Both the position numbers and the translations under genes were made by a program. The notes beneath the pieces were generated by a model that had not been told where the DNA came from, did no database searches, and worked only from the letters and a program-made list of their open reading frames with translations. From Bryum argenteum (taxonomy: Eukaryota; Streptophyta; Bryopsida; Bryales; Bryaceae), in contig CM073321.1 of the NCBI GenBank assembly GCA_037043015.1, forward strand, positions 41,560,420 through 41,624,419: DNA of 64,000 nt. The letters run 5' to 3'. Positions 6,826 through 28,272 of the stretch are shown in pieces; position 1 is the stretch's first letter; every line of letters starts with the position of its first letter.

Positions 6826-7163
6826 GGCGACCGCCGAGCGAGCCGATGAGCGAGCGTCGGTCGCTAGGGCGACCGCCGATCCAGCGGATGGGCGACCGCC
6901 GATCCACCTGGTGGGTGACCGCCGATCCACCTGGTGGGCGACCGCCGATCCACCTGGTGGGCGACCGCGGATCCACCTGATGCCTTCGGTCAGAGGGCGC
7001 GACCTCCAACTGCGAGGGCGTGACGTATGTCAAGGGGCGCGACCTCTGGATCACGCGACCGCCGATGCAGCGGACGGGCGAACGTCGGTCGTTGGGGCGA
7101 CCGCCGATCCAGCTCGTGGGCGAACATAGGTCAGTGGGCGACCGCCGGTCCAGCTCATGGGCA
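6826..7163. repeat. GC-rich dyad repeat cluster 3, upstream of WCHI copy A
   Basis: Repeated GGGCGACCGCCGATCCA units, including at least four near-tandem copies of a roughly 20-bp unit between 6890 and 6975. It lies about 300 bp upstream of the WCHI copy A start. The duplicate in copy B is shorter by roughly 230 bp, so the units expand or contract. Confidence 0.85.
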
Positions 7164-8507: not shown

Positions 8508-9375
8508 GTGCTGACTAAAAAAGACCTTATAAAAATTATGGAAGAATAAAATTTCCCGTAAGAGAAACGTATCTACATGTCATGATTTACATTGACTTGG
8601 TAGGATGCTGAGTAATAGAGGAAGTTATACTAAAGGGGGGAGGAGGTGGTTTTATTATTTTCTCTAACCGTATTGAATATATTGAATCATGAAAGAAGCC
8701 ACATGGAACTTCGATTTACATGGAAGGAAATACTTGGTGTTAATTTGATTCAACTCTGGCATGGTATAGGGTACTTGGTGTTAACTTAAGGGGATATTAA
8801 GTATTTTGAGACAATTTGCAATCTCAATTTAAATCAGTGGTTAAAAATAGTAAATCTGGTGTCAAGTAAAATGAGACTTAATTGAAAATGAGACTCGAAT
8901 GAACCCAACAAAAGAATGTAATTTGAACCCTCGATACCAAAAATTCTATTAATATATTTGTTAATCATTAATATTCATTATTTTGAGACGGAAAGTATAA
9001 TGAGACTACTTCACATCTCATTACTCGAGTCATAGATTGCAAGCTTCAAGGACCAAAAAGTATTATGCATGATGAATATTATTACTTTAAAGAAAAATAT
9101 ATATAAGAAGTAATCCGATCAAAGGACATATTAATATCTATAGAGAAATAAAATTATCACAACACCAATGGAAGGAAATAATACCATGGAAATACATTGA
9201 AATGGATATACCATCTTACTATAAATAGATAAATCATCTCTAGGAGTAGTGTCATACTACTCTAATTTGCATTGGCTACATTGCGATGAGAAAGAATGTA
9301 CCATTGTAACTAATATAATCTAATATAACTATATATTAATATGAGAACTACTCATCAAACTCGATAATTGAGTCC
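8508..9375. other. AT-rich intergenic stretch, nothing recognised
   Basis: Low-GC sequence with short A and T runs. No gene, terminal repeat or palindrome of the 9-27 kb type was seen, so it may lie outside the left edge of that cassette. Confidence 0.4.
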
Positions 9376-12168
9376 TTAATAATTGAAATTTGTAGCTCCG
9401 GTATGCCCATAGATCTTGGGATTAACGGTTTCAAGACAAAGCCTTGGCCTCCAAGCTCCCATGATTGATGTTGTAGCCACCCAAGTTGGATCATAATCCA
9501 TATCTTTACAGCAAGAGTTACCTCTTCTTGTATCCCACCCTTCATAAGTGTCAGGATTGACATGTTTAGAAGATACCGGCTTCCAATACTCAATGTGGAT
9601 TTCTTGAGGATGCTCTACACTAGCATTTGGATTGCTCAAAGCACGAGCTATCCAAAATTTCTTGAGATCTCCATCAGCCGGACGTAGCACAAGTAGGTAT
9701 CCCTCATAAACATCCCGTCCAACTCGGAATGATGCTTGTGGACGATCTCGTATTTGTCCTACGAACGGAGGATCAATAGCAAATTCCTCGCGCAATTCTC
9801 CGTTATCTTCAAATCGATCCTCTTCACTTGGAGAGTACCTAGAAGTGGGCCAAAATCCATCCCTAAAAGTTGATGGAGTAGGGACAGGTAAATCTAAAGC
9901 CTCACGAACTGCTTTCCAATAGTAAATGAATTCCTCATCATGTCTACGATAGTCCCCTGTTGGATCCGCATCCGCCAAAGACTCCCACAAGCTCACAAAA
10001 CCACTAATTTCCTTTCGAATGTCTTCAATATTCTTCATTTCGTTTGGAACTAGTAACGTAGGATCTCCAAGAGGAACCTGAGGTTGACCATTTGGCAAAA
10101 CTTTCCACAACCTAACCCCTGCACTATCTTGAGGAAGCCACTCGCTATCCGTACACAGAATTTTGTACTGCATCAAAGGCCAGCCGGAAGCATCTCTAAA
10201 AAGCCTAAATTGTTGGGCACTAGTATGCCCAGATAACGCCTTGTCGCCATCACAGAGGTAACCTTTGATGAACGTCTTGAAATCCGGAACTTCCTCAATT
10301 AAGTGAGGAATTACCGGCTTTTCCTCTGTGTCCATAAAAGATCTCATGAGAAGGGGAACAGTAGGGTAGCTGTTGGTCTTGAGTTTACTACTCCATCGCC
10401 CAAAAAGAGCATCAATATCTTCATGAGTGTGACCCACAATAAGGAAGTTCAAGTAAATCTCTCTAAAAATGCCCTTGTAAACGAGCAATGAAAAGAATGC
10501 AAAAACAAACCGATTCTTATTATCCCCGCAAGCATTATCAAGCTGCATGTGTAGCACCGAAGGAAGAGGCTTTCCCGGGATTGGAGCCTCGAGGAGAAGA
10601 CCAAGCAAATCCAAGCACATGTCCGCCCCATCCAAAACAGCCTCAGAGAGAGGGCTACTTCTACCACCACCAAACAACTGCCTGGAAGAGCACTTTGGAG
10701 GAGATTCCAAATCTCTTAACAGTTGAGCAAATGAACCGATATTATGATTAGAATCCGTGGGATATATATCGAGGCCGTAATGTGCGTCACGTACATCTCC
10801 GTGTCCATGAGCAATCATGCCTGTGATGGAAACCGGCAATTTCATGAAGGAATCGGTCGATTTACTCTTGTGTGAGAATTGCGGAGAGGTTGTCTTGGAA
10901 TGGTCCATTTTGTCATGAATAATGCACAAAGATGATTCGGGCCGTGCCTCAGACTTTGAACGGTTGCTATAATAGAGTAACCTATGCGCCATTTGAGAAG
11001 TATTAGGACGTTTGAATTTGGCATCATGAAGAGCCCATGAGCGACTGCCTCGAGTACTCGATGCTCGAAGTTGTTTGATTTTGTCACATTCACCACATCG
11101 CGCAAATGTGTCACCCTTTTGCTTGGAATAGTACTCTTGGAATGATTCTTGCCGGATCCTACTTAGAGCAGAATTTGATATAGGAGGAAGACCGTGGACG
11201 GCATTGATAGCATTCACCTCTGGTAAATTGTCCCTCCAACGGAAGGAGGAGGGCAAGCATTTGGACACTACCTTCTCGCCTGTATCAATAGTCTTTGTTC
11301 GATGCGGCATGAGATCGACAGCATTTTCCACAATGGCTTGAAGGGATGCTGTGGCTCGCAATGTCTGGATACGAGGTTTCTTTGAACCACAGTTTCCATG
11401 GTCCTCTGCTTGCTGTCCGTCTTGATAGGCATACCTCCACCGGAAAAATGTGGCACGTGACACACCCATAATCAGGTACCACGCCACGCAACACACCTCA
11501 ATACCCTCCAACATAATCATGTCATTTCCGTCCGCCACTTCGTGGACTTGACCATGCACACTAAGGAGACAATGTTTTCTGAAGTAAACATCACCGCGAA
11601 CATAGAACTGGAACCTCAAATCTTTAATTTTGGCTCGAGGATAGGGCTGCACACAGTTCTTTGGACAACAATAAGTTGTTGAAACAAAGTTGATGGACTC
11701 CGGTGTAAGAAAGTACTCCTTCTTTGGTGGTGAATCCCGAAGACGCCTTTGACGTTTGCTCTCGTACTGACGGAGACCAACTCGTGGTGGCTGACCAAAA
11801 ACCTTGCAAGCCGCATTGAAGATGGCGTGTTGGTTGTGGTCGTAGAGGCTTGCTCCGTTGAGAAGGACATGCGTGATTGGCCATGCACGCAAAGAGTAGA
11901 TCCAACCGAAAGGAACCTCTGCTTCTACTAATGACTCTGCTATCTGCACGCAGACACAGTCGGATCCAAGAGACCGACCACCAGTCTCTGGGACAATGCT
12001 TGAGTCAACCAATTGACAGACAGCTTTTGCAACTTCGACATCGGCGTCATTCAGAAGAGTGACACGTTTCGACACCCATGATGAGCGGTTAAAACCCTCG
12101 CACTGTGCAACTCCGTCAGGTAGAACTGGTGGACGGAAATCGACACCGTTGACAACAAAAGTCTCCAT
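9376..12168 (-). CDS. DUF7869-type transposase-like protein, 930 aa
   Basis: A long intact ORF without introns. Three acidic blocks in the order of an RNase H-fold nuclease are visible: IIHDKMDHSK (about 416-425), MQLDNACGDNKNR (541-553) and VGHTHEDIDALFG (578-590). The LDN--GDNKN and GHTHEDID blocks are what I remember of the DUF7869 family, found in eukaryotic mobile-element proteins. Upstream are a Cys cluster (CCPKNC, 167-172), a helix-turn-helix-like GVSRATFFRWRYAYQDG (235-251) and CGEC (358-361). The C-terminal 120 residues look like a small beta-barrel (FWIARALSNP, IHIEYWKPV). The start is firm: ATG is preceded by a strong splice acceptor, TTCTTCTTATTTGTAG-G. This implies a leader intron, which would contain palindrome array A. 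The protein is probably a DNA-cutting transposase; its substrate is unknown. Confidence 0.75.
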   Translation of the reverse strand: METFVVNGVDFRPPVLPDGVAQCEGFNRSSWVSKRVTLLNDADVEVAKAVCQLVDSSIVPETGGRSLGSDCVCVQIAESLVEAEVPFGWIYSLRAWPITHVLLNGASLYDHNQHAIFNAACKVFGQPPRVGLRQYESKRQRRLRDSPPKKEYFLTPESINFVSTTYCCPKNCVQPYPRAKIKDLRFQFYVRGDVYFRKHCLLSVHGQVHEVADGNDMIMLEGIEVCCVAWYLIMGVSRATFFRWRYAYQDGQQAEDHGNCGSKKPRIQTLRATASLQAIVENAVDLMPHRTKTIDTGEKVVSKCLPSSFRWRDNLPEVNAINAVHGLPPISNSALSRIRQESFQEYYSKQKGDTFARCGECDKIKQLRASSTRGSRSWALHDAKFKRPNTSQMAHRLLYYSNRSKSEARPESSLCIIHDKMDHSKTTSPQFSHKSKSTDSFMKLPVSITGMIAHGHGDVRDAHYGLDIYPTDSNHNIGSFAQLLRDLESPPKCSSRQLFGGGRSSPLSEAVLDGADMCLDLLGLLLEAPIPGKPLPSVLHMQLDNACGDNKNRFVFAFFSLLVYKGIFREIYLNFLIVGHTHEDIDALFGRWSSKLKTNSYPTVPLLMRSFMDTEEKPVIPHLIEEVPDFKTFIKGYLCDGDKALSGHTSAQQFRLFRDASGWPLMQYKILCTDSEWLPQDSAGVRLWKVLPNGQPQVPLGDPTLLVPNEMKNIEDIRKEISGFVSLWESLADADPTGDYRRHDEEFIYYWKAVREALDLPVPTPSTFRDGFWPTSRYSPSEEDRFEDNGELREEFAIDPPFVGQIRDRPQASFRVGRDVYEGYLLVLRPADGDLKKFWIARALSNPNASVEHPQEIHIEYWKPVSSKHVNPDTYEGWDTRRGNSCCKDMDYDPTWVATTSIMGAWRPRLCLETVNPKIYGHTGATNFNY

Positions 12169-12332
12169 CCTACAAATAAGAAGAAGCTTGAGAAGATAGC
12201 TTAGTGCTTGTTTAATAGCAAACCAGATGAGAAAACATGAATTCCGTTAAGTATAAACTAGTTGTATGTTAACCTGAGCGATTGCATGATTAACCCGGTC
12301 GAGATAACTATGCAACTGACAAAAAAATAAGA

Positions 12333-13290
12333 ATTATCCCCGGCCCAGGGATAACAAACAAACTTCCTACTAATAACTAGTATCCCCGACCCGGGATAAA
12401 AATATTTCGTAGGCAGTTGGTTAGTTATCCCCGGGCCGGGATAACCATGCAACGGTCAGTAAATACTATTATCCCTGTCCCGGGGATAATAGTTTTTTGT
12501 GCGCAGTTATTTCGTTATCCCCGGCCCGGGGATAACTAACCAACTGCCTACGAGATATTTTTATCCCCGAGTCGGGGATAATAGTATTTTGTGGGCAGTT
12601 ATTTCGTTATCCCGCGCCGGGAATAACTATGTAACCGCCTTCAAAATACTATTATCCCCGACCCGGGGATAATAGTTTTTAGTGGGCTTTTGGTTGGTTA
12701 TCCCCGGCCCGGGGATAACGGAATAACTGCGCACTAAAAACTATTATCCCCGGGTCGGAGATAATAGTATTATGTGACTGTTGCATGGTTATCCCCAGGC
12801 CGGGGATAACTAACCAACTACCTACGAAATATTTTTATCCCCGAGTCGGGGATAATAGTATTTTGTAGGCAGTTATTTCATTACCTCCGGGCCGGGGATA
12901 ACTATGTAACAGCCTTCAAAATACTATTATCCCCGGGTCGGGGATAATAGTTTTTTGTGGGCAGTTATTACGTTACCCCCTGGCCGGGGATAACTATGTA
13001 ACCGCCTACACTATACTTGTATCCCCGGGTCGGGGATAATAGTTTTCTGTGGGCAGTTTGACCGTTATCCCCGGCCCGGGGATAACAATTCTACCGCCAA
13101 AAAATAACTATTATCCCCGGGCCGGGGATAATAGTTTCTTGTGGGCGGTAGAATAGTTATCCCCGACCCGACGATAATGGTTTTAATGGGTGGATGCATG
13201 GTTATCGTCGTGGCGTGGAAAATCATCGGAGCATAGCTTCCTGAAATAATTCCCACAGACAAGAGAAATTATCCCCGGCCCGGGAATAAC
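12333..13290. repeat. Palindrome array A: 21 units of a 23-bp palindrome, period about 45 bp
   Basis: Units of the form (A/G)TTATCCCCGG-N-CCGGGGATAA(T/C), with 11-bp arms around one central base, start near 12333, 12380, 12424, 12468, 12514 and so on to 13268. The ends alternate strictly between GTTATCC...GGATAAC and ATTATCC...GGATAAT. The spacers (about 22 bp, for example AGTATTTTGTGGGCAGTT) also alternate in orientation, so the array is a chain of head-to-head and tail-to-tail copies. Some changes keep pairing (CCCCGA-G-TCGGGG at 12560 and 12835); others are single mismatches. The last few units are degenerate. It probably lies in the leader intron of the DUF7869 gene. Confidence 0.95.
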
Positions 13291-13880
13291 TTCCATTCTA
13301 TTAATAGTAAGTGCTGAAATACTGGCATTCACGCCTTGCACACAATTTGCGAACATCGCTCACTTGCGAATTGCAGAATTCGAAAGGAAAACAAGGGCTC
13401 GCAACTGAACAAAACCAAGCACAAAAATCAGTACTTAATACAGAATTCGAAAAGAAACATGAGGAGCAGTAGTCATAACTTGAATCATTCTCAAACTAAT
13501 GCAACAATACTGAATCCTATAATTGCGAAACTACATCAGACGCATTGAGCACCAACTGAAACTCCTTCTACACACAAAGAACCTTGAATCTACACACCGG
13601 AACGAAATATGAAACGAAGCGCACCTTGAGAGCACGATCGAGAGTGAGAAGAAAATGAAATGACACTTGAGAGACAGAGTATGCAACCCGAGCCCGACCC
13701 CTACGTGTACATCGTGAGAGTATCTCGACGCCCGAAATCGTGCAAAAAGCCGACACGTTTTTGTCGCAATATGGATTTTGTCTTGATTGGGAATCTAAAA
13801 ACGATTCCACTTTTAAAAACTGAAATTTGAAAACATTAGGCGGCAAAGATGTTTCGGCAGGAAACTGATTTTGGAGGGAA
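13291..13880 (-). other. Probable 5' leader and promoter side of the DUF7869 gene
   Basis: On the minus strand this stretch is pyrimidine-rich (TCTGTCTCTCAAG, TTCTTCTCACTCTCGATC) with higher GC than its right flank, as in many plant leaders. A possible splice donor, CGCAA-GTGAGC, lies near 13366, and the acceptor sits directly before the start codon at 12168. If this is right, array A is intronic. No TATA box was assigned. The 92-codon open stretch here has no recognisable homology. Confidence 0.4.
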
Positions 13881-15283
13881 ACCCATTTCTAAATATCGAT
13901 TTTTTATTTTTTACAAAAAATATTGTATTATAGTCTCTACAAAATTGAACATTGTATACATAACTATGAGAAGTGGAAAAAGAAATACGAATTCGTATTA
14001 ATGTATTTATTGAATAAACTATAATAACTACAAAATTAGAGTTATATATTATATTTAGTATATTATATTATATTATACTATATTATATTATATTATATAT
14101 TTATTGAATAAACTATAATAACTACAAAATTAGAGTTATATATTATATTTAGTATATTATATTATATTATACTATATTATATTATATTATATTATATGAT
14201 TTTATTTTATATAATTTTACATCTGGAGAACAATATATATATATATATATTATTATCCTATAGTATAATTCTATGTGATATTCTTTTATTATTCTATACT
14301 CTATTAACTTGTACTATGTTTGATTATTCTAGATTATACTACGTTATAATATATTATAGTATATTATAGTATATTATACTAATTATTCGATAGAATATAT
14401 TACTATATAATATTATGTGATACTTTATTAAACAATATCATACTATTATTTACTATAATTTCCTATAATTTCCAACATTTTTCTGTATTATCTTGTAATA
14501 TATTGTATTATATGGTATTATGAAGTTTTTCTAATATTTTATAAAATATAGAAATTGTTATTTTATATTATATAATATTCTAATATGATATATTTTCCTA
14601 TATGAAAAAGTTCTACATTATTTTATGTTATGTAATATTATATGATATATATTATTATCTTTTGAAACATATTTATATTATCGTTTAATATTCTATTGTA
14701 ATAAAATATACTATGTTATACTATATTTTAGTACATCATACTACGCTATACTATAATTATTATGCAATATTAAATTGTATACCATTCTCTTAAGGTAATA
14801 TACTATATAATTATTGTTATTATTATTGTTAGACTATAAATTTTACACTATATGATTATAATTATTGTACTATATGATTATAATTTGTCAATTCATATCT
14901 CACAGTTTTTAAAGTTATTCCTTTTTTAATTTGCAATCATTTCTAACTTGATATATAAAAATGGAAGAAGTTTGTTATATTATAATATATTATACTGTAG
15001 TTTATTATCTCATATTAAAGGCTATTAACCAAGATTAAATAAATACCATTATATTCTATTGTACTATATTGTATAATATTATACTCTTTAATATTATTTT
15101 TCAATATGTTAATTTATGTTATATTATATTATAGTTCATTATATGTACCTAAACTTTTTTTTCATAATAGCAATGAGAACTAGCTTGAGAGAATTAAAAT
15201 TACTCCTTTGAAGGCTTGGATTGAATGACTCACACATTAAAAATGCTATTAAGATTTAGTTCAAAAAAAATCTTATTATGATA
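13881..15283. repeat. AT-rich core with TATTA microsatellite and a 97-bp tandem duplication
   Basis: Very AT-rich with ATTATATTATATTATA runs and an (AT)n tract near 14230-14250. A segment of about 97 bp starting near 14000 (ATTGAATAAACTATAATAAC...) is repeated directly from about 14100. No gene is seen. This core separates the two divergent leaders. Confidence 0.8.
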
Positions 15284-15420
15284 TCAAAGAAGAAGAAAGG
15301 TGATGACGCTTCCAGCGCCTTCGACGATGACGATTCGAACAACTCGGAGTATCGTGCTGCTTATCAAGCGGAGGACAAGCAGGTCATGCAATCACCGCAT
15401 GCATCGCCCACAACATAGAA
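15284..15420 (+). pseudogene. Displaced exon fragment of the ParB-like gene
   Basis: Encodes a KKKGDDASS-to-QVMQSPHASPTT stretch that aligns base for base, with substitutions, to the acidic linker at about 22605-22735 of the ParB-like gene (EGDDPSNDSD...QIMQSPLASPTA). It ends in an in-frame stop. There are no flanking exons, so it is a truncated copy left by duplication or rearrangement. Confidence 0.8.
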
Positions 15421-16541
15421 ACAAAAGAATCATCTCTTTTAGTACGTAAGTTTATTATTTTCAATTGATAGGTATAACAAAATTAGATTAAGAAGAAAAA
15501 AAAAAAAAAAAAAAAAAAACGGTTCTTGGGTAGAACTGTTTGAGTTAGTCGTTACAATTGCATTCTTGAATCTTATAGAATCTTTTATAGCAAGGTCCTA
15601 TGTTTTATTACAAGATATTTTGATATAATTCAAAACATCCGTACACAATTATATACTTAAAAAAAGAATATTGTTGATAAATAAATCGGGCCCTATAGTC
15701 TTACAAATATATACATAACATAGTTACTGTTTAATCCTAAAATATTTGTTCAAATAGAGTCTTTGGATAATTTAAAATACAACCTTAGATTTGAAATGAA
15801 ATTAGATTAAGAAATTTCAGTGACCTAATTGTACAAACTTATTTGACATTGATTTTGTTACCTAACATGGCAATTTTACGTAATTCCTATCAAAAAGTAC
15901 AAAGATATTAAAACTTAGAATGATTTAGAAGATTCTAAACTTAGCATATAATACATAGAATTATAATCTACCTAATCATAGGATCATAATTGATAATGAA
16001 TCTATCTTGAACACCTAGACTTTCTGAAATTTTATCTTCAACTAAATTAGGAATATATGTACAAACAAAAACGTATGTAATTTAATACTAAAAATTTTGA
16101 AAAATCAAATTTGGAAAACAACAAAGAATTTGCATTTTTATTGTAGCATATAGTTATAAGACAATTGTCTTTCACATACTAAAGTTAGAAAATTCTTTGT
16201 AGAACAGAGCTAAAATAGCCTTCAATTAGAACTTAACCCCTAAATTTCCTTGTTGCAAGACGGTCTAAGTCACAAAATTTCACTTTGCTTAAGATTAAGT
16301 TCAAAAAATTTCAATATACGTATTATTTGGAAGATTCAACCATAAGATCTCAGAGTTAAGTTGACATTCTTCCACAGATTAAATTTAACCCATTCATTAT
16401 TTCCCATTTGTGAGATTATAATGGTCAAAGTTGGCTGAGTTTTTTCCCCTGCGATCACCTCCAAAACCCGTTTCGGGTTTTAAGGAAACTTAGGGGTTAT
16501 ACAAAGATCTTCCATGGAAACCAAAGTGCATTTGAATAGAA
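15421..16541. other. AT-rich stretch with an A24 tract, no gene
   Basis: AT-rich sequence with about 24 consecutive A residues at 15496-15519. No coding region was recognised. Confidence 0.6.
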
Positions 16542-16760
16542 CACCAAGTCGAATTATTTTTAAAAAAACAAAGAAAGAATATGCATTCTAAACTTCGATA
16601 AAGAACTGAAAAGTTTTTTTATTCTCTTTGCATACCAAATTTATTTAAAAAACCAAGTCAAATTATTTTTAAAAAAACAAAGAAAGAATACGCATTCTAA
16701 ACTTCGATAAGGAACTGAAAAGTTTTTTTATTCTCTTTGCATACCAAATTTATTTAAAAA
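16542..16760 (+). repeat. 110-bp tandem duplication
   Basis: The segment beginning ACCAAGTCGAATTATTTTT at 16542 is repeated at 16652 with only a few differences. A third partial start (CCCAAGT) lies at 16761. It is non-coding. Confidence 0.9.
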
Positions 16761-16838
16761 CCCAAGTAATGAATTAAAAGAAGTAAAAAGAAAAAAGTAA
16801 GCAATCTTTTATGTTTTTTTCCCGTTCATTGGCATGAG

Positions 16839-16945
16839 TACCACACATGTACATGGTCATGTGCATGGCCATGCACATGCACATAGCCATGCCCATGACC
16901 ATGCACATGCACATAGCCATGCGCATGACCATGCGCATGCGCAGT
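16839..16945 (+). repeat. CATG-rich minisatellite
   Basis: About 100 bp built from CATGNNCATG-type words, such as CATGCACATGCACATAGC repeated, giving an odd Met/His-rich open frame on both strands. The composition is explained by the repeat; no protein is proposed. It sits just upstream of the GC-rich leader of the ParB-like gene. Confidence 0.8.
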
Positions 16946-17600
16946 AATGATGGCAGGGTCATGATGACCCCTGCGCCGTCTTCTCCACAGGCTCACTACG
17001 CTCGCAGCTTCTCCTGCGCCACTCTCCGCCGTTTACGCTCATCTCTCCGCCGTTTCTGCTCACTTCTCCGCCGTCTCTCGCAGCATCCTTCGCAGCATCT
17101 TTGCGCTCGTTCGTGCCCTCTCCTCGCAATACCCTCCTCGCAGTTCCCTTCTCGCAATTTCCTCCTCGCGGTTCTGTAACCGCAGTAGTTGTTTTTTTCG
17201 GTCCATGCTGCTTTTCCTGCATTTGGCTGCGTTTTTGCTGCAGGCGCCCTCGGTAGCGATTTCCTCAGGCTTTTTAGGTTTCCGTGCAACATTGCGGTGC
17301 AGACTTGCGTTGTGGAGCTGCGGCGCTGCTGCTTGTCGTTGCGGAGCTGTTCAAACTTGCGGAGCTGCAGCGCTGCTTTTTTTTTTTTTCTTGGTGCTGA
17401 CTTGCGTTGCTGAGCTGCTTCTGGTGAGTTCGAAATCCTTGTTCTTGGCTTTTCTTGTACGCGCGAGGGCTTTGCTCAATTCTCCTAGGGTCGCCAGGGT
17501 TTTTGCTCAGTGTTGTAGCTCCTTGCAGCATTTTTTTCATGGAATGCAATCAGGATCAGTAGGGTTCAGCTGAATTCATCACCTCGATGCTCTTCATTTT
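16946..17600 (+). promoter_or_regulatory. Probable promoter/5' leader of the ParB-like gene
   Basis: An abrupt GC- and CT-rich segment (CTTCTCCGCCGTTTCTGCTC repeated words) after 3 kb of AT-rich DNA. A good splice donor, CTTCTG-GTGAGTTCG, lies near 17425, and a second acceptor/donor-like TTTCAG-GTGAGA near 17845. The acceptor TTATTTTTGCAG lies at about 19302, nine bases before the first ATG. This predicts a leader intron spanning array B. It is inferred from sequence only. Confidence 0.45.
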
Positions 17601-18005
17601 TTTGTGCTGCTTCTCTACTTTTAGTGCAAATACTGGAAGTGGTGATTTTGAGGTTTGATGTTTAAAGAACAACGTAACTGCATACGAATTTGTACTATTT
17701 TTTCAGCTGAATGAAGTGTATTTTCTTTTGATGTTGAAGGTGTCAGCTTGGAGGTGTTGCAAGTCTAGTATTTAGCTGAATTCATCACGAAATTGGGTTA
17801 CTTTGTCAGACCACATTCAGCCTTCACTCTGCATTCATTTCAGGTGAGATCTCAATTCAAATTGCTGTGCTTGGATTCATGAATTCATTCGAATTGAGTG
17901 AAATTGCTATTGGAATGCTAAATCTACGACGTATGTAGATATAGCTTTTGTTTTGACCTGATTCCATGTATGCCAATGCACGACATTTCCATAGTTGCTA
18001 CCAAT

Positions 18006-19145
18006 GTTATCCTCGGGCCGGGGATAAATCATGCCCAGAGCTGAATATATGGCTTATGATGAGAAGAATTATCCCCGCCCCGGGGATAAAAGTCTAATTG
18101 TGCAATGAAAAGAACAAAAAATAATTCAGATTATCCCCGGGCCGGGGATAACTCTTGCCAAAACCTAATAATTTGGCTAAAAGAGGAAGGAATTATCCCC
18201 GGCCCGGGGATAATATTAAAACTTTTTCAATAAAAACGAAAACGCGGATCCAAATCATCCCTGCGCCGGGGATAACACATGTCAATAGTTAAGTAATTGG
18301 GTTATAAACAAAGGAATTATCCCCGGACCGGGGATAATATTGTAATTCAGCTGTAAAAAGACAGAATTAGAAGTCATATTATCCCCGAGCCGGGGATAAC
18401 CTCTTGGAAAAGCCAGAAAATAGGCTTTCATAGTTAGAAATTATCCTCGGCACGGGGATAATAGTCTAATTGTCCAATAAAAAGACAAAAATAAAATTCA
18501 GATTATCCCCGCCCCGAGGATAACTCTTGCTAAAAACTTAGAATATAGCAAATAGAGTAGGGAATTATCCCCGGCCCGGGGATAATGTTAAAAATGTTCA
18601 AACAAAAACCAATATACGAATCGAAATTATCCCCGCGCCGGGGATAACACAAGCCAAGATATATGTAATTATGTTATGAACAAAGGATTTATCCCCGGCC
18701 CGGAGATAATAATGTAATTGAGCTTTAGAAAGACAAAGTTAGAAGTCAGATTATCCCCGGCCCGGAGATAATAATGTAATTGAGCTTTAGAAAGACAAAG
18801 TTAGAAGTCAGATTATCCCCGGCCCGGGGATAACTCTTGCAGAAAGCCAGAAATTAGGCTTACTTAGGAAGGAATTATCCCCGGCTCGGGGATAATTCCT
18901 TCAATGTACCATGAAATGAACAAATTACAAATCCAGATTATCCCTGGGCCGGGGATTACTCAGACCAAAAGCTAAGAATTTACCATATGAACAATAGAGT
19001 TATCCCCGGCCCGGGGATAATGTTCATATTGTGCTGTAGAAATACAAAATTGGCATCCAGATTATCCTCGGGCCGGGGATAACTCTAACAGAAAGCCAGA
19101 AAATTGGCTTAGAAAGGATAGTATTATCCCCGGCCCGGGGATAAT
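18006..19145. repeat. Palindrome array B: 19 units, period about 61 bp
   Basis: The same 23-bp palindrome as array A, in 19 units from 18006 to 19123, plus one degenerate unit near 19264. Two spacer types alternate: one like CTCTTGC--AAAGCCAGAAA, the other like CTAATTG-GC-ATAAAAAGAC. The true repeat is therefore a dimer of about 122 bp. One 63-bp monomer is perfectly duplicated in tandem (about 18690-18815), a recent event that breaks the alternation. The array ends about 165 bp before the ParB-like start codon and probably lies in its leader intron. Confidence 0.95.
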
Positions 19146-19310
19146 ATTCTAATTGGTCCATCAAATATCGATAATACGTCCAAACAACCGGACCATACCT
19201 CGTTGAAGAAACAGTTATCTAATTCCAAAGCTTAGTCGTAGAAGTGAGCTAGACTATAACAAACTTATCTCCGCCCAGGGGATAAATAGCTTATTTTTGC
19301 AGTAGTACTC

Positions 19311-22300
19311 ATGAGTTGCCTTTTATGGATGCAGAAGTACATGTTGCTCAGGTGCGTCCTTCTACAGCAGGACGAGGATAGGGAACCTTACCACTTCGGA
19401 ATTGTGGTAGAGGTGGGAGTAGACTGCGGAGCACAGTTCGACCCGCACGGCTTCCTTGAAGAACTGCACAAGACTCGGCATGGCTTTCTCAAGTTTTGGG
19501 AGGATAACATCAAGAGCTGGGAGAACATTAACCAGGAAGATACAGCTCGGAAGCTGACGACCATGCTATCAAGACTGTCCCAATCGAATGAAGGATCAAG
19601 CAGTAAAGCGGCCAAGAAGAAGAAGGCACCCGCCGCGTGTGCACTTGTCGTGCATCCTGAAGCTTCAGCTCCGCAATCTAGTGGTGCTGTACCTGCCCCT
19701 CCGCGAGTGCCTGCGAAGAGGCTGATGAATGATGCGATCGTGGCGGGCGCTGCCGCCCCCAAGAAGAAGAGACAACGTACCGCTCCCCCTGCAGCAGCAA
19801 GTCAGGGATCTGCCTTAACTTCCGTAGTCGAAGTGCCCGCCCGACAGAAGAAGGATTCATCCAAACCTTCTGCTGAAGTGGCAGACTACGTGAGGTTTGC
19901 CTCTGAGCAGACAGTCTTCAACGCCAGCTTCAAGGACTCTTTCTTGTTCAAGAAAGAACAGAAGCTCGTGCCCATTTCCCAGCTTGAGAGGGGAAAGGAC
20001 GCGTGGGTTGTGCGAAGTCTCGAAAGGGACATCGTAAACAATACAAAGCAATACCTCGCAAGGATGGGAGATATCACCCGGAGGCAGACGATCATCATCA
20101 CTCCCATTGACGCCAATGGAAATTTGCTTCCTAGGCGGCCAACGACATGGGAGGAGATCAAAGATGGGAAATTTGCCATCATTGACGGCCAGCACTCCGT
20201 GGAAGCCTCGAGGGAGCTTCAGAACGAGCCATTGACAGGGGAAAGGAAGAAGGAACTTCTTTCGTGGTATGCATATATTCTATACGAGACCGACCCGAAG
20301 CGCCTCACTTCGATCTCGGCATTTTACAACACCATGAACCCACTTAAGCATGCCCAGCCAACGTGGGGAAACCAGATAAAACCTGGGAGGTCTATTTGGA
20401 TCGACTGTGGGCGTCCCTCCGCGAACGTGAACGAGAACGCAACGCGGAACAACGACTCGGTCTACAATCCCACCAATTTCAAGGTAAGAATATGTACACT
20501 CCCTATGGATTATCCCCGGGCCGGGGATAACTCACCGTCTGTTTCAGTGATAGCCCACTGCCTTAGATTACGACTATTATGTAGATTATGTCTGTCACTT
20601 TCTTGGAAAACAGTTTTTTGTCATGGTTTACATAATTCTTCTCTTGTACTCTTGCCACTGGCAAGATGTCTGATGCAGTTATCTCCGACCCGGGGATAAC
20701 TAGGCTCTACTGCCCTGTAGGCTTCTAGTACTTCAGTCTTCGCATCTAACACTTCATTCCACTGTACTCTCAGAAATTCACGGATCTTCTCAACATCCGG
20801 TTTCGCAACATCGATCCCAACAAGGTCGGGAAGACGATTCTGACTACATCGGACCTCAAGCACAAGATCCAGATCATCACCTTTCCCGACAGCATGTACA
20901 ATAGGTTCGCGGAGTTCCTAGACCTCCATTCGCTTGGGAATTTGATCAACCCCGACACAGGCGCACCTTATCGCATGAACCCAACATACTTTACGGGCGA
21001 TAAGCATCATGTGAGCCATGAGTTCTTTAGGAAGTTTGGGAATCATTCTGATGATGACATTGACAGGGTTATCACTTTCCTCGTCCATGTTGAAACTGCG
21101 GACGGAGCGATGAAGTATCCAAGGTTGTCCTTCCACAAAACCAAATACTTTCATCGCTTGAGTCACGGTTGTGGAGATTGGATCATCCGCCAGAAGTGCA
21201 AGGCTGTAGTATACCAGGAGTTCAAGGCGGTTAGACCAACTCTTCCATTTTTCCTTCCCAACGACGGAGCAGTATGCCCTCAGAAATGGAAGGTATGGAA
21301 GTCAAGGAAGGGCTTCTCGACGGCGTCGTGGAACATGCTGCTCGGCCACATCGAGGCAAAATTCTACTCGACGCGACTGCAGAATCAGGGGAAGTGCAAG
21401 ACGGCCGGGGAGCTGAAGTCCATGTTCCCCAATGCCGAGGACTTCTTCAAGAGCTTCCTCCGGGAGAAGACCAAGCATCGGGAGTCAACCAAGACATTCA
21501 ATCTTCGGACCTACGACGCGAAGGCAATGACTCTCAGTGGCCAATGGTCCACCGAGGCACCGGCGAGATCAGTTTCGCTGGGGCTGTTTGACTTGCGAGA
21601 CACAGCCTTCTCGCTTTGCAAGGACTCCAATGCCGCGAAGGAGTTCTTCAAAGCTTTGGTAGCAAAGTTCGCTGCGATATCAAGTCCAGCATACACAGAC
21701 CCTACTGTATGGGTCTGGATCGTAAAACGGCGGCAATGCGAACAAGCTTCATAAGCTGAAGGCGATGATTCAGCTCAGCCACCCCAACTACACGATGAGC
21801 ACGTCCAAGTACGTGGTGACAAAAGCTGAGAGGATCTACAACGCGCCAGCGATTGAGAGATCTGCCAACGACGTGTACATCATCTTCTTGTTCAAGAAGA
21901 CACCTGAAGGGCAAGCCTTCATCGGGACCAACCCCACGGAATTCAAAGCAGCCCATGTACCGTATTACATCGATAGTGGGCACTACAACGAGGCCAAGTG
22001 GTGTGCCAAGTTCTCGGAGCTGCGGATGGAATTTTACATTGGTCTCATCCGCCGGTACTGCAAGAACGGTGACTCAACACTCGGGATCTTCTCCGGCTCC
22101 AAATTCATGGTCGCCTCCCTGGTAATCTCGACATCCACCGTCCACTCTTGCAATGACTTTCTTCCATTATCCCCGCCCCGGGGATAATTTAGCTGCCGTA
22201 TTTTTGAGACCTTCACTTTATTTCACGGTTCCTAGTTCTATCAGTTATCCCCGGGCCGGGGATAACTTTAGCCGGCCCTTCGTGACTGATCTTTTCTTAT

Positions 22301-23581
22301 CTTCCCTTGCGGATCCTGAAGCATTCCTTCTACGGCTTGGTTGACAAGCACTACTACGGGAGTTACCTGCTTTCTGCGGATAAAAAGGCCAGGGTTGACT
22401 ATAGGGACTTCATGCACGATGACTGTCCCTACGACACCAAGAAGAACTCATCGTCAGATGAAATGATGGACCTCAGCCTCGTTACAAGGGCTTCATTCGA
22501 GGGAAGCCAACCTTCTTCTTCTGCAGCCAAGCCGCAGTCCGACCTGGGAGCTGAAAGTACGAGATCACCTCAAACTCAGGCCCCAGATACTTCTTCAGAC
22601 TCTTCGAAGAAGAAGGAAGGTGATGACCCTTCTAATGACTCCGACGGTGACGACCCGAATGACTCGGACTATCGTCCGGGTTATCAGGCAGCGGGCGAGC
22701 AGATCATGCAGTCTCCGCTTGCATCGCCCACAGCACCATCACCTGAGGCATCACCAGCAGGACCGTCATCGGATGCATCACCAGCAGCACCATCGGCGGA
22801 GGCAATGGAGACATCTCCTCCTAGCTCCACTCCGATGGGTGACGAGCAGCAGGGGCAGGGGCCTGATGCCGAGATTCGACGCCCTCGTAAGGAGCCTATG
22901 CCAGTGATCCCGTCGAGGCTCGCTACGTCGGCAACCATGCCTGTTCAATCATCTGCGGATGTTGTCGTCGGATCATCGGGCAACCCCGAGTCGCGTAGGC
23001 CATTAAAGCGCCGGCTCGATCTTGCAGCTGAGATCACGGCTCCGAGTCAGCCATTGGATGGGGCGTCTTGCGCCATGCCCTCTTCTACTGTGGCGCCTGC
23101 GGTGGACACAACCCCTCAAAGTAAAGATCCTACCAGACGGGGGAGGCCACTCTTTGCACTCGTCGCGCCCACCCACGTATTCATTGATCTCAGTGACGAC
23201 GATGGCACTGATCCGGCGGATGAATTCTATGTCGTCGATGTCGCAGCTCCTGAACGCGAAGCCAACGAGCTCCCGACATCGACACCTTCGAGCTCCCGTC
23301 GGCGTAACCGGCCCGTTGATGATTCAGACCAGGCAGCTCTTGATGATGGCACGCCTGTGAAGAAGGAGAAACCTGTCGTGGTGTGCAATCCCTCTACTGA
23401 CCCAATGGCGAATGCAGCAAGAGTTGCGCCTCCTCCAAGTGCTCCGGGTGTGAAGGTTGAGGAACACTTCCTGGCAAACAACAGGAGGCTAGCCGAAGAG
23501 GCGAGACTGAAAAAGGAGAAGACCCAGAAGGAAGCAGAGGACACAAGGAAGCTCGCAGAGGCTAACGTCGTCTTCGAATGA
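19311..23581 (+). CDS. ParB/Srx-like plus DNA-methylase-like fusion protein, copy 1
   Basis: Exons: 19311-20483, 20774-22121 and 22322 onward; both introns are phase 0 with GTAAGA/CAG and GTAATC/AAG borders. Exon 1 has Lys/Arg stretches (KKKRQR at 151-156, possible nuclear signal) and a ParB/sulfiredoxin-fold core: LVPISQLER (about 219-227), IIITPID, then FAIIDGQHSVEAS (288-300), matching the DGQHR/G-(N/E)-HR active-site strand. Exon 2 ends with GDSTLGIFSGSKFMVAS, aligned to motif I (DPF-GSG) of N4/N6 DNA methylases of the order in which motif IV comes first. The expected DPPY motif is degenerate (LFDLRDT), so catalysis is doubtful. Exon 3 is an acidic, Ser/Pro-rich linker. A 1-nt shift lies in an A4 run at 21724-21727; dropping one A joins the two halves of the methylase-like region. 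The first stop is at 23579. Bacterial ParB-methylase fusions are known; this eukaryotic one is unfamiliar to me. Confidence 0.65.
20484..20773 (+). other. Intron 1 of the ParB-like gene, with two palindromes
   Basis: 290 bp, donor AAG-GTAAGA, acceptor TGTACTCTCAG. It holds palindromes at 20509-20531 (perfect arms) and 20678-20700 (two arm mismatches). Splicing joins the reading frames in phase 0. Confidence 0.85.
22122..22321 (+). other. Intron 2 of the ParB-like gene, with two palindromes
   Basis: 200 bp, donor CTG-GTAATC, acceptor CCTGAAG. Palindromes lie at 22166-22188 and 22244-22266. It joins motif-I-like sequence to HSFYGLVDKHYY in phase 0. Confidence 0.75.
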
Positions 23582-24539
23582 CTGAGAACTGGCACGCCGA
23601 TGCCACCCCACGTTGCTGCGATAATTGCACGCCAGAATACGGATCTTCCTTCCACCTCGGGCGCCCCAAGTTCCGAGCCTGATGCAGATTATCCCCGGGC
23701 CGGGGATAATGCTGCCACCACCACCGCTGCTGTACCCATTAGCGAGGTGGAGCCCTTGCCGCCTTCCTCTGGCACAGCCACACCAGATTATCCCCGGGCC
23801 GGGGATAATCTTGCTGCGACTGGCTCCGACGCCCAAGCGCAGCCTATTCCCTCTGAGAGGGATCCTGAGCAGGTCGTTTGTGAACCTCTTGTTGTTTCCG
23901 TTCAGCCCGATGTCGTTGCTGAATCTCAGGCTGGTGCCGATCAGCGCGATATGTCTGGAGATTATCCCCGGCCCGGGGATAATGCGGACACTTCTGTTGA
24001 GGTGTCCCCTCCCGCCGACGAACCTGCTTTGGGTGCTGATTCATCGAGTGTGGCACCCGCTGCATCAGTGGTTGAGTCTGCTCATCCACCCGATTCTGGT
24101 CTAGAACTTTCGCAGTACGACTAGTTGGTAAGTTATCCCTGGGCCGGGGATAATGCGGAGCCAAGAGTCGAAGTGGAGGACACCATTCCTGAGCCCATCT
24201 CAGCGCCGGCGTCCGATCAGCAAGAGTTTGCGAGCACTCCGGCAAGGACTCTGGACGATGCCGATGACCAGCAGTTGGTGGACTATTCGTCTAGCCCGAC
24301 CAACGCGATTCAACCGCAAGAGCCACATGACAACGTAAGTACTTTCACCTTCCCTCCACGACTGCAATAACTCGTGATCGTCACAACCGTCATGATTTTG
24401 TTTGTCTTGGCCCTAACCTAAACCGATTCGCTTGCCTGAACTTCGCTTATTCGTCTATTTTCTCCTGCAGGAGATCGACGACCCTTATTCATTATTATTT
24501 TTCTGGAGTTGTCAACGTTTGTTGTGGCGTGTCATGTAG
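23582..24539 (+). pseudogene. In-frame continuation of the ParB-like gene carrying four translated palindromes
   Basis: After the TGA at 23579 the same frame stays open to a TAG at 24122, then again to a good donor (AAC-GTAAGT) at 24334, and splices in phase 0 to 24471-24539 (CTCCTGCAG acceptor), ending VM-stop. A palindrome lies at 23688-23710, 23787-23809, 23961-23983 and 24132-24154, each read in the same phase as (D/S)YP(R/W)(A/P)GDN. AATAAA follows at 24622. Either the two stops are nonsense mutations in a longer protein, or this is a 3' UTR that was recently coding. Calling it part of the gene is inference. Confidence 0.6.
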
Positions 24540-24621
24540 TCTAGATTTTCGGTAGTATTAGTACCCAGCGTAGTGTTTCGGTCAAAGTTGACATACACTT
24601 CCCTTGTACATGATGGATGTA

Positions 24622-24627
24622 AATAAA
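24622..24627 (+). terminator. Polyadenylation signal AATAAA
   Basis: AATAAA 83 bp after the last in-frame stop of the ParB-like gene, in an AT-rich stretch, oriented for that transcript. Confidence 0.55.
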
Positions 24628-24873
24628 TTTATTTTTGATATCAATATTTTTGTCTTCAAGTTGAAGTGTCATTTGATTTTCTTCAATGTCTTTCTCAGTT
24701 CACCTCTGTGGGATTCATTCTGCGCCCACGGGCCGTGAGATTGCTTCAGAATCCGATCGATCTGGCCCCAATGCCACGGATGCAATGCATGCCGTCATTG
24801 TGGATTTGCTCAGATCGCAGTGTCTCTGCTTTCAATCAGGTATCCTCAACATTATCGTTTTCTTTGATGCCAG

Positions 24874-25701
24874 GTAGAATTGATTTCCCAATTTGAGTGT
24901 GTCTCGCGCCCGAGGTCTGCACTCGGGCAAACGGCGGCGCCTCGATGGTTGAATGTCGTCCTCGACATCAACGGGATCCTTTGTCACTGTGTGCATCTTC
25001 CATCGCTCGGGATGAATTCTCCCATGTGCTCTCCTGGGGACCGGCTCTACGTGCCGGACATCCCAGCTAAGGTGCCCCCAAAGGCGGTCTTCTGCCGCCC
25101 GGGAGTGAGAAATTTCTTGGAGACCATGTCCGCCCATGTTGCGAGGGTTGTGATATGGAGTTCGATGAAGAAGTCCACTGTTGAGGCCGTCATTGACTAC
25201 CTCTTCAGTGGACTTCCTAAGCCTTTTGAGATCCTCGGACAAGAGTCTTGTGGATTGGTTGAGGTTAGCAGAGGTGTCTATTTGTCTTACCCGACCAATG
25301 CTCAAAAGAGGATATTTTTGAAAACATTGTCCTCTGCGGTGTTCCCGCTTAGTAACGGTGCTGTTGTGTTTGGGTTGGATAACACTCTCCTCATTGACGA
25401 TAGTCCTAGGAAGAGTATTTGCAACCACACCGGAAATGCCATTTTCCTCCAGCCTTGGGCAAAATCTAGCCGGGAGGACAATACTCTGTCCGCCGAGCTT
25501 ACTCCATGGCTACTCGCTCTTCTCGCCACTTGCAGGCCTGGGAATCTTCGGTCCTATGTAGACAATCATAGGATTGGTATTCCACCTCTCAATAAGTATA
25601 GCAATTTAGAGAGGTTTATTTTAGATGGTATGGCGCAGTCGCATAGGAACTTAGGGCGTACTTACGACACTCCTTCATTTCCTAAGTCATTGTCTAGATG
25701 A
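24874..25701 (+). CDS. FCP1-like (NLI-interacting factor) phosphatase, 5' end uncertain
   Basis: The HAD-fold FCP1 homology domain is clear: LNVVLDINGILCHC (nucleophile Asp; the usual second Asp is Asn-Gly, a variant I recall from plant members), FCRPGVRNFLETM, RVVIWSSMKKSTVEAV and LLIDDSPRKSICN. These are motifs I, the RPG strand, motif II and the DD loop of Ser phosphatases. The frame is open without an ATG near its 5' end, and a CAG acceptor at 24871-24873 suggests a terminal exon. The upstream exon is not placed; the nearest donor-like site is only 34 bp away. AATAAA lies at 25787-25792. It sits between the ParB-like gene and the serine-rich gene on the same strand. Confidence 0.75.
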   Translation, partial: VELISQFECVSRPRSALGQTAAPRWLNVVLDINGILCHCVHLPSLGMNSPMCSPGDRLYVPDIPAKVPPKAVFCRPGVRNFLETMSAHVARVVIWSSMKKSTVEAVIDYLFSGLPKPFEILGQESCGLVEVSRGVYLSYPTNAQKRIFLKTLSSAVFPLSNGAVVFGLDNTLLIDDSPRKSICNHTGNAIFLQPWAKSSREDNTLSAELTPWLLALLATCRPGNLRSYVDNHRIGIPPLNKYSNLERFILDGMAQSHRNLGRTYDTPSFPKSLSR

Positions 25702-26184
25702 CGGTTAGGGCGCTCTGTATTCCTTTTTGAGGACCTAGTAGATAAATATGTAAATGGGTTGCTATTGTATGAATAAGGTTGGTTTAAATAAAGAAGCCGA
25801 TTATTTTATCATCCTTTATGTACCACATCGCAATGTGATCAATTTCTATTACGTCATTTGTGGATGCTTGTTCACTTAGGATTGATGTTGATGATTGTTT
25901 TTCTTTGTATGACTCTTTCTTTGTTGTTAGTTAGAACGTCATTTTTGCCGGCCCGGGATAATCTTTGGAAGTATCAGCTTGTATGCATTCAGTCTTCTGT
26001 TCTCTTTATGTCGAATTTGATTTCACTGGTTGTTTTCTTCTTATGTACTTGTATGCTTTTTGCTTCTGAACATGACGTCAGTTCTTCCCGGCTTCAGTTA
26101 TCCACGCTTCGTGGATAACTCTTCCATGTTTCTTGCGTCCATCTTTCCTGACCGACTCCTTGCATTTCTGGGTTTGTTCTACAG
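25702..26184 (+). other. Intergenic/intron stretch with a half palindrome and a compensated hairpin
   Basis: Holds AATAAA (25787), a damaged palindrome half GCCGGCCCGGGATAATC near 25947, and a perfect hairpin GTTATCCACG-CTT-CGTGGATAAC at 26097-26119. The acceptor TTGTTCTACAG at 26174-26184 closes the likely intron before the next exon. Confidence 0.7.
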
Positions 26185-27027
26185 GTCAAGGCGCCTTCCA
26201 CCCTCGATGAGTCCAGTGAAGAGGATGATGTCTCCAACCAAACCTCCGTCCCGGAATGTTCTGTTTCACTCTCAGCAAGTGTTGCCGCCACTCTCGCGTC
26301 GAGGCATTTTGATATGTTCACGGCTACGGACGCAGCATCCGCAACGATGGATTTTACAAGAGATAGTGTTGATGACAATGTTGTTGACAGTCCGCCGAGT
26401 CGTGGTCCTGTTCGGACTCCGGTTTGCTCCCCGTCTCCCCTGAAGCGGCTTCGTACATCACCATCGCGGAGGCGCTCTATGTCGCCCGATGCTCTAAATT
26501 CGAAAACACCTCAGAGGCAGCTCTACTCCGGTGTGGGTGCTATGGACGTTCCTTTGCGAGATTCAATTGTTCCTCCTTCCACCATCAATGTGGGTGGGAC
26601 ATCCAATACATCACAACCCGCGATCCATGTCAACAATTACAACAGTAGCAGGGCAACAAGATCCCTCGGCGGTGCCCCGCGACAACTACGTTCAAAGGGG
26701 GATTTCTTGCCTCTTGCAATGCCACTAGCATCGCGCCCCCCACCAGCAAGGCGAGCTTCTTGCACACCCCGGCCGTATCCTGCGCATGGGGAATCGGCAG
26801 CTCCTTCATCCTCTCGTCCTTCGCGTTCTCTTGACTCCCTTCGTAGGCGTGATGGGGAATGTTTTGACACCTGGTTTGCCCGTCGAAGTGAGACTTTGGG
26901 TACAAATTGTCTGCCAAACTCTCGTCGCAATGATCTTATTCGCGCGCTCATGAAGCAGCACGAGGCGGAAGCCAAGTTGTTGGAGAATTCAACCAAGCTG
27001 AATGGCTCTAAGTCTAAGGAGACCTAG
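26185..27027 (+). CDS. Ser/Pro/Arg-rich protein, terminal exon
   Basis: Open from a strong acceptor to a TAG, about 280 codons, with acidic STLDESSEEDD near the start, then SP-rich stretches (SPSPLKRLRTSPSRRR, possible phosphorylation and nuclear targeting) and a more ordered C-terminus (ECFDTWFARRSETLG, LIRALMKQHEAEAKLLEN). No family was recognised. Upstream exons are not found in the window with confidence. The compensated palindrome lies in the preceding intron, which links this gene to the same repeat family as its neighbours. Confidence 0.55.
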   Translation, partial: VKAPSTLDESSEEDDVSNQTSVPECSVSLSASVAATLASRHFDMFTATDAASATMDFTRDSVDDNVVDSPPSRGPVRTPVCSPSPLKRLRTSPSRRRSMSPDALNSKTPQRQLYSGVGAMDVPLRDSIVPPSTINVGGTSNTSQPAIHVNNYNSSRATRSLGGAPRQLRSKGDFLPLAMPLASRPPPARRASCTPRPYPAHGESAAPSSSRPSRSLDSLRRRDGECFDTWFARRSETLGTNCLPNSRRNDLIRALMKQHEAEAKLLENSTKLNGSKSKET

Positions 27028-27786
27028 CCTTAATGTTTCTCCTTTCTGTTCTTCCTCCTTTGCTCTGATATCCTTCATCAGCGGGATCTATTCAACATAA
27101 TTAATGTGTTTCGCAGTTTGGTGGAACCTAGTATGAACATCTAAGATATCACGGCTTAGCTAGTTGTGCTTACTTGAGGATTATCCCCTTCCGTGACCAT
27201 GCATTTATAGCTCTTCTGTGATTAGTATATTCCGCGTATATTCCTCGTATATTTTACAAACATTCTTTTAATTACTCTTTCTTTAGTATTATTAAAGGCA
27301 CAACAGTTAATGCCTCTACATTCATTCTCTTATTTCATTCTTTTACGATATATACCAATGTCAAAATATAGTGTACACTTGTACAATTGTACGTATTCTT
27401 CATACTTCAATACAACCTTTACCATGTCTTCCAACTATGATCTCACTTGAATCAATTGTGACTTCTCAGGGGAATTAATGTGAACATGGTTCGTGTATGA
27501 TTCTTTACTATGTATTGTTCGATGTCTATTTTTGGTAATATTAAATTGCCAAATCGACCTACTTCCTTCTATTTATAGTAAGATCTCATTTTCAAATCTA
27601 TTGCTTTGTGATTGGACCCTTCAACTCTTTCTTTTTGCTTAGCATGTTAATTTAAATTTCATATCTTTGAAATACTTCAACAACTTTTTCCTTAGCCCCC
27701 TTGCGTGTGTGTTTTTCAACATCTCAATATGTCCATTTTGTCTCAAAATAACGAATATCCCCTTACTTGATTCAAAACCTCCAGAT
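27028..27786. other. AT-rich stretch, no gene
   Basis: AT-rich 3' flank. One half-palindrome-like GGATTATCCCC occurs near 27179, the last trace of the palindrome family to the right. No boundary repeat was identified. Confidence 0.4.
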
Positions 27787-28272
27787 CGCGCGACCGCCAA
27801 TACAGCGGATGGGCGAACGTCGGTCGCTAGGGCGACCGCCGATCCAGTCGATGGGCGAACGACGCTGACAGGGCGACCGGCGGTCTACGTGATGGGCAAC
27901 AACCCAAGGAGAAAGTGTTCGCGAGCCTCCGCGCACCCCTCCTGATGGGGCGACCGCCGATCCAGCCGATGGGCGAACGTCGGTCGCTTGGGCGAACGTC
28001 GGTCGCTTGGGCGAACGTCGGTCGCTTGGGCGAGCGTCGGTCGCTAAGGGGACCGCCTACCCAGCCGATGGGCGAACGACGCTGACAAGGCGACCGGCGG
28101 TCCACGTGATGGACAAGAACCCAAGGAGAAAGTGTCCGCGAGCCTCCGCGCACCCCTCCTGATGGGGCGACCGCCGATACAGCGGATGGGCGAACGTCGG
28201 TCGTTAGGGCGACCGCCGATTCAGCCGATGGGCGAACGACGCTGAGAGGGCGACCGACGGTCTACGTGATGG
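27787..28272. repeat. GC-rich dyad repeat cluster 4 with nested tandem repeats
   Basis: GGGCGACCGCCGATCCAGC units. A block of about 110 bp containing AACCCAAGGAGAAAGTGT and CCTCCGCGCACCCCTCCTGA is repeated near 27840 and 28060, and a 19-bp unit GGGCGAACGTCGGTCGCTT occurs four times in tandem near 27972-28050. This shows recent unequal exchange. Confidence 0.9.

Follow-up and report, generated by a model that had tools for sequence, protein, structure and literature searches.

A giant, probably Sola-like transposon of the moss Bryum argenteum carries a ParB-like gene and arrays of a co-diverging palindrome

This study concerns a large DNA transposon of the moss Bryum argenteum and a short palindrome repeated within it. 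The element lies in a 64,000-nucleotide stretch of contig CM073321.1 (positions 41,560,420 to 41,624,419 of assembly GCA_037043015.1), which is called the window here. It encodes a DUF7869 protein leftward and a ParB-like protein rightward as a divergent gene pair, with a NIF-phosphatase-like gene and a serine-rich gene downstream. Its palindromes are enriched in elements of this kind, and palindrome and element proteins diverge together, with the same change in both arms. As an explanation of the whole, we lean towards a giant transposon of Sola-like type, in which the ParB-like protein would act on dedicated operators of its own and counter silencing.

The block is a large cut-and-paste DNA transposon because terminal inverted repeats (TIRs) occur in many copies and 4-bp target duplications flank them. 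A preliminary description of the window had confined the block to 9376..27027 and suggested that it could be a mobile or selfish element. One block it is, a single transposon with both genes, but its real ends lie at 8788 and 27764 and make it longer. Genome searches covered the 258.8 Mb assembly; the best candidates were scored and the first places listed. The TIR pattern (≤2 mismatches) matched 81 forward and 89 reverse places, 170 together, and a control pattern matched none. Twenty left-right TIR pairs were picked among the 100 matches listed out of these 170, with spans of ~12 to 37 kb. The 4-bp flanks were varied between pairs and identical within 19/20 of them, the exception being CAAA/CAAG, which differ by one base. 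The target duplication is ACTT in the window copy and ATAT in another copy, c2. The preliminary description had advised looking for ends with target duplications, and both are thus present. No short non-autonomous end pairs were seen by eye among the same 100 of 170 matches, where the shortest pair spanned ~12 kb.

A 4-bp target duplication defines the Sola superfamily in the available part of PMC10741241, and this feature was found here. Size, presence in a moss and 4-bp duplications all agree with the Sola description given there, and on this agreement we call the element Sola-like. The DUF7869 protein is probably the transposase, judging from its sequence. Its frame is free of stops in the window copy and several others, and named relatives occur in Ceratodon and Physcomitrium. 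An alignment of 23 DUF7869 rows contains invariant Asp and His residues, and the several invariant Asp bear on the question of a DDD triad. A sequence search found no PDB relative, and no mention of DUF7869 was found in the literature searched.

The palindrome has a core of 21 bp, TTATCCCCG-NNN-CGGGGATAA (CC type), rather than the 23 bp first described. About 50 copies had been reported, all within the block, and the count holds: 49 sites with ≤4 mismatches to TTATCCCCGNNNCGGGGATAA were found in the window (46 with ≤3 mismatches), none of them outside 8788-27764. Strict TTATCC..GGATAA palindromes numbered 35 and spanned 12334-26098. In 100 dinucleotide shuffles of the element the mean was 0.1 sites and the maximum 1, compared with 49 in the real sequence. 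The sites were also said to be tied to the genes of the block, and each cluster was located: array A precedes the DUF7869 gene and array B the ParB-like gene, with pairs in introns 1 and 3 of the latter, copies in its 3' exon, and a variant before the serine-rich frame (Table 1). Array spacing varies (46, 62, 41 and 54 bp). The main arrays are at least 3.5 kb from either element end; for the variant at 26098 the distance to the right end is 1.6 kb. The 3' exon palindromes, at 23689, 23788, 23962 and 24133, are in frame and read as DYPRAGDN and similar peptides, and the distances between them are multiples of three in 2/2 copies checked. Two relatives from other sources, P0068 and P0069, available as protein only, continue beyond the exon as YPRPGDN and YHRSGDN, the kind of peptide that the palindrome gives when read in that frame.

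The sites are under more constraint than the spacers between them. In window and c2 sites all 18 fixed palindrome columns are conserved at ≥90%, with flanks at 27-67%. In copy c7, 16/18 columns reach ≥80%. A second palindrome type (GT type, below) gives 15/18 and 18/18 columns at ≥80% in arrays on contigs C1 and C4, respectively. Flanks in the c7, C1 and C4 arrays are lower and uneven, up to 88% in C4. In intron 1, 39/42 and 40/42 palindrome bases are kept in c2 and c3, as against 94/143 and 98/143 of the remaining intron bases. The start of intron 1 (first 330 bp, ≤3 mismatches) was inspected at 14 hand-picked ParB-like loci, 12 of low identity and 2 close. Eleven have a CC-type site and one has a GT-type site with 3 mismatches. 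Compared as a possible trace of protection, CpG transitions in 160 palindromes were 0.047 and 0.019, no higher than at neighbouring C (0.028-0.047).

The palindromes are enriched in these elements. Exact CC-type copies number at least 810 genome-wide (pattern centre NNC) and exact GT-type copies 127 (centre NNN), both with a control of 0; the generic pattern TTATCNNCGNNNCGNNGATAA matched 1544 sites and its control 1. Every CC-type cluster among the first ~100 of 1615 rows (6/6) has one or more element genes at its locus, and both GT-type clusters followed (2/2) have a ParB-like gene. The tally is of clusters and leaves out isolated single sites such as C1:759866, C1:2283099 and C1:2571766. DUF7869 has at least 59 matches in the genome, merged by hand to 49 loci, and the ParB-like protein at least 96, merged by hand to 83 loci. 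A ParB-like match lies ≤25 kb from 27/49 DUF7869 loci, while 1000 random placings gave a mean of 2.2 and a maximum of 8. The co-occurrence that the preliminary description wished to see checked is found for palindromes and element genes in the sampled clusters, and for the two proteins at part of the DUF7869 loci. On a separate point, 31/49 merged DUF7869 loci fall on C1, which makes up 17% of the assembly, and many there have stops; our guess is that this contig might be a sex chromosome or one with little recombination.

Related elements with more distant proteins carry TTATCGTCG-NNN-CGACGATAA (GT type), a symmetric change in both arms. GT sites occupy matching places, ahead of both the DUF7869 gene and the ParB-like gene and within introns 1 and 3 of the latter, a placement pieced together from different GT-type loci. 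Two elements with DUF7869 proteins 50-53% identical have GT arrays of 16 and 10 sites (≤4 mismatches) upstream of that gene. At two other loci the ParB-like protein is 26-42% identical to the queries, and GT sites lie upstream of the gene and just past the splice donors of its first and third introns, positions that hold CC sites in the window. No CC sites (≤3 mismatches) were found at these two loci. The GT-type ParB-like genes comprise these two fetched clusters and the gene at C1:23414614, whose upstream stretch (L088) holds 10 GT-type sites and no CC-type site. In a tree of 18 rows (6 unlabelled), the CC type is accounted for by one change (99/100) and the GT type by one change (100/99). 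Label shuffles were as clustered in 2/500 cases for CC and 24/500 for GT. The outermost base of the L088 sites drifts, and 2/10 are exactly GTATCGTCG-NNN-CGACGATAC (GTATC...GATAC), symmetric at the outer base too. A third palindrome type, GTATCGTCG...CGACGATAC, was considered at this gene; a full rescan gave a mixed outermost base and the sites were kept as GT type with drift. Telomere-like TTTAGGG repeats lie beyond array A in both GT-type elements (L069:2183-2320 and L071:1755-1932). As a common feature these heptamers were rejected, the window family not sharing them.

A symmetric change that tracks the protein lineage is what one would predict if a dimer encoded by the element reads the site as its operator. 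Because related elements carry the matching variant, the pattern suggests recognition of the palindrome by one of the element's own proteins. Hairpins in RNA or DNA, acting in transcript processing, pausing or cruciform formation, would account for dyads with a 3-nucleotide centre and for a symmetric change between families; within each family, however, the consensus is kept base by base, beyond what pairing requires, and the sites are found ahead of genes, within introns and in coding DNA. We regard a hairpin role as very unlikely. A host factor of the MYB-related or GATA kind might instead bind the half-sites, the element having amplified host operators for its promoters. GATAA/GGATA half-sites resemble plant I-box and MYB-like sites, which we count for such a factor, and the arrays do lie upstream of genes. 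A 21-bp palindrome, a symmetric and family-specific change of inner bases, and sites in introns and an exon fit an element-specific protein better, and all six sampled CC clusters are tied to the element. We regard a host factor as quite unlikely.

The DUF7869 protein itself could be the element protein that binds the palindromes, either regulating its own gene or helping to assemble the transposition complex. Array A sits at the DUF7869 promoter and co-diverges with DUF7869, the protein has weak helix-turn-helix matches below curated cut-offs, and the TIR tip of the window family, GGGGATA, resembles the half-site GGGGATAA. This resemblance does not track in either GT family read, where the TIR tip is AAGGCC[A/T]TATT and the half-site GACGATAA, and the link between TIR tip and half-site was dropped as evidence for DUF7869 binding. 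The distance of the main arrays from the ends also speaks against this protein, and the TIRs read carry a different motif, TGAGAC, which is repeated near the element ends. We judge DUF7869 an unlikely binder. The ParB-like protein is ranked first, because sites occur in its upstream region, introns and exon and because it shares a ParB motif region with a phage protein; on this sequence evidence it is probably the binder of the palindromes.

The ParB-like identity is supported at the level of a motif. Alignments A2 and A5 of the ParB-like proteins share a DGQH-type motif with a phage protein of ParB_N type at hhalign probabilities of 87 and 63, respectively, over 27 columns. That phage protein has its own PF02195 match at E=6.6e-4, below the curated cut-off. 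One of seven ParB-like proteins matches a PHROG ParB family (E=0.048), and beyond this weak match nothing informative came from PHROGs, PADLOC or PDB sequences. Among phage records P0076 had no match, and P0067 had one weak ParB-type match (E=6). The exon-intron layout was read from splice signals and relatives rather than transcripts. The window gene is broken: its match to P0067 begins at residue 85, the frame shifts at ~21726, and stops occur at 23579 and 24122.

Beta-class N4C/N6A DNA methyltransferases carry the motifs [DNS]PP[YFW] and FxGxG. The preliminary description had called the gene ParB-like/methylase, and the ParB motif is there; an active methylase was considered and rejected, since the catalytic motifs were not found in seven C-terminal halves, whose likeness to methylases was judged by eye. 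Of 12 relatives, only P0066 and P0076 include the C-terminal half, and five genomic halves were added (window, c2, c3, L072 and L073). In the frame of the gene [DNS]PP[YFWH] was found in 0/7 halves; the window copy has one SPPW, off-frame. The FxGxG-like place is altered in 6/7 (FCGSK, FGGSK, FSGSK, YADAK, YAGTK) and was not found in the other. Together with the absence of any Pfam or NCBIfam methylase match, this makes it very unlikely that the protein is an active N4C/N6A methylase marking the element's own sites, the role for which self-marking proposed for an Ectocarpus transposon, Sola1-1_Ec32, might have argued (PMC12477816, in the available part).

Several observations weigh against the reading that a ParB-like protein reads these sites and counters silencing. 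The protein has no Pfam or NCBIfam match, the ParB_N profile included. No ParB-like match lies within 25 kb of 22/49 DUF7869 loci, a figure from the best candidates scored, with many copies decayed. At 2 of the 14 hand-picked loci, intron 1 shows neither a CC nor a GT site within its first 330 bp (≤3 mismatches). The CpG comparison for methylation scars gave mixed signs, with CpG in coding DNA ~2-fold above CpH in two genes and below it in a third. The GT side is drawn from few loci (L069, L071, L072, L073 and L087-L088), each read in part. All element proteins diverge along the same lineage, and co-divergence consequently does not name the binder; the symmetric change fits hairpins as well.

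In the mechanism that we propose, the DUF7869 protein would act on the 27-bp ends and generate the 4-bp target duplications. The divergently encoded ParB-like protein would bind the 21-bp palindromes as a dimer, and these would serve as dedicated operators at both gene promoters, in introns and in one exon. With many sites occupied, perhaps helped by ParB-like spreading, the element genes would stay active despite host silencing. The ParB-like protein would probably also set its own dose. Judging by their placement, the sites would serve to regulate the genes of the element rather than to act at its termini. Introns and an exon hold sites as well, and there is a parallel in the VANC proteins of Arabidopsis VANDAL transposons, which counter the silencing of their own elements; on these two grounds we favour activation or anti-silencing over repression. 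This choice of outcome is tentative, and we hold it with slightly less than even confidence.

Table 1. Positions in the window of the transposon, its genes and its palindromes.
Feature	Position	Strand	Remarks
Whole transposon	8788..27764		18,977 bp; flanks ACTT (8784-8787) and ACTT (27765-27768); ends common to other copies
Left TIR AAGGGGATATTAAGTATTTTGAGACAA	8788..8814	+	27 bp, direct reading
DUF7869 gene	9376..12168	-	930-amino-acid open frame; PF25273 E=2.1e-41
Array A	12334..13289		~46-bp spacing; starts 166 bp before the DUF7869 frame's first ATG
A+T-rich intergenic block	14001..15144		15% GC at 14001-15000; TATAT repeats; alignable in c2, c3, c5
Array B	18007..19144		~62-bp spacing; directly upstream of ParB-like gene; extra site at 19265
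ParB-like gene, DGQHS-motif exon	19311..20483	+	~first 84 residues of relatives absent in window copy
ParB-like intron 1	20484..20773	+	palindromes at 20510, 20679
ParB-like exons 2-3	20774..22121	+	frame shift near 21726 in window copy
ParB-like intron 3	22122..22321	+	palindromes at 22167, 22245
ParB-like 3' exon (inferred borders)	22322..24334	+	low-complexity tail; two in-frame stops
NIF/CTD-phosphatase-like gene	24868..25701	+	PF03031 E=3.6e-15; by tblastn also in c2, c4, c6
Variant palindrome TTATCCACGCTTCGTGGATAA	26098..26118		precedes serine-rich exon
Serine-rich open frame	26152..27027	+	in c4, c6; partly in c2
Right TIR AAGGGGATATTCGTTATTTTGAGACAA	27738..27764	-	27 bp, direct reading

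The A+T-rich block between the two divergent genes is a possible unwinding or scaffold region. NIF-type phosphatases are expected to have a catalytic motif of DxDxT type. The NIF-like protein has DINGIL at that place and, because of this replacement, may be inactive. Outside the element, the right end of the window (45509-64000) is taken up by ~174 copies of a satellite with a ~107-bp unit. G+C-rich minisatellites of the GGCGACCGCCGATCC kind flank the element at 6867-7162 and 27790-28256 and recur further right, at 38443-38593.

Parts of this arrangement recall known systems. Bacterial ParB-parS partition machinery pairs a ParB-type protein with clustered palindromic sites on a replicon; here the similarity to ParB is confined to ~27 columns around DGQH. 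The En/Spm element encodes TNPA, which has repeated short subterminal sites, whereas the main arrays here are at internal promoters and in introns. VANDAL elements combine a Mutator-like transposase with VANC, in place of the DUF7869 and ParB-like proteins found here.

VANDAL21, with its element-specific anti-silencing protein VANC21, bears a short motif amplified in tandem arrays ahead of the transposase gene and within introns; between related elements this motif varies (PMC5735166; PMC10398659, both in their available parts). The moss elements likewise have arrays at promoters and in introns of the ParB-like gene that differ between families and, in the clusters sampled, are tied to the element. 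The VANC21 motif, as the available text describes it, is nine bases long, non-palindromic and mainly in non-coding sequence, in contrast to a 21-bp palindrome that is also found in an exon (PMC5735166). Fungal DNA transposons carry TET/JBP genes, again an epigenetic accessory gene, a dioxygenase there and ParB-like here (excerpt of PMC12730594).

The closest published case is Sola1-1_Ec32, a 21.5-kb giant Sola-1 transposon of Ectocarpus that encodes its transposase on one strand and a ParB-methyltransferase on the other (PMC12477816). The available part of that paper proposes that such proteins bind the transposon which carries them and mark it, with Iyer et al. 2011 and Petroll et al. 2025 among its references. 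The two elements are alike in giant size and in a ParB-like gene opposite the transposase, a likeness by description only (PMC12477816). They differ in that Sola1-1_Ec32 belongs to a brown alga and has a predicted methyltransferase domain, the catalytic motifs of which were not found here. Target-site arrays are present in the moss element, and the portion of PMC12477816 available does not mention them for Sola1-1_Ec32. With self-binding and self-marking of a Sola1 element already in print, the preliminary description's "candidate new system" was too strong. What is new here is a set of candidate target sites and their co-divergence with the proteins.

Algal transposon genes of the ParB-methyltransferase kind were noted without target sites in the published text at hand (PMC12477816), and each moss copy supplies dozens of candidate targets. 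Two natural specificity variants make self-recognition testable by a simple binding experiment, and the sites could offer matched, orthogonal pairs of protein and operator. The elements could represent a sequence-specific anti-silencing system that is the second in plants and arose independently, although we find this rather doubtful as it stands. In such a system the ParB-like protein would load at the palindromes, spread and shield the genes, and protein and site would co-evolve into CC, GT and perhaps more specificities that do not cross-react, splitting one lineage into self-recognising families. If anti-silencing is true, the system would parallel VANC with unrelated proteins and would show a transposon lineage splitting into families that recognise themselves.

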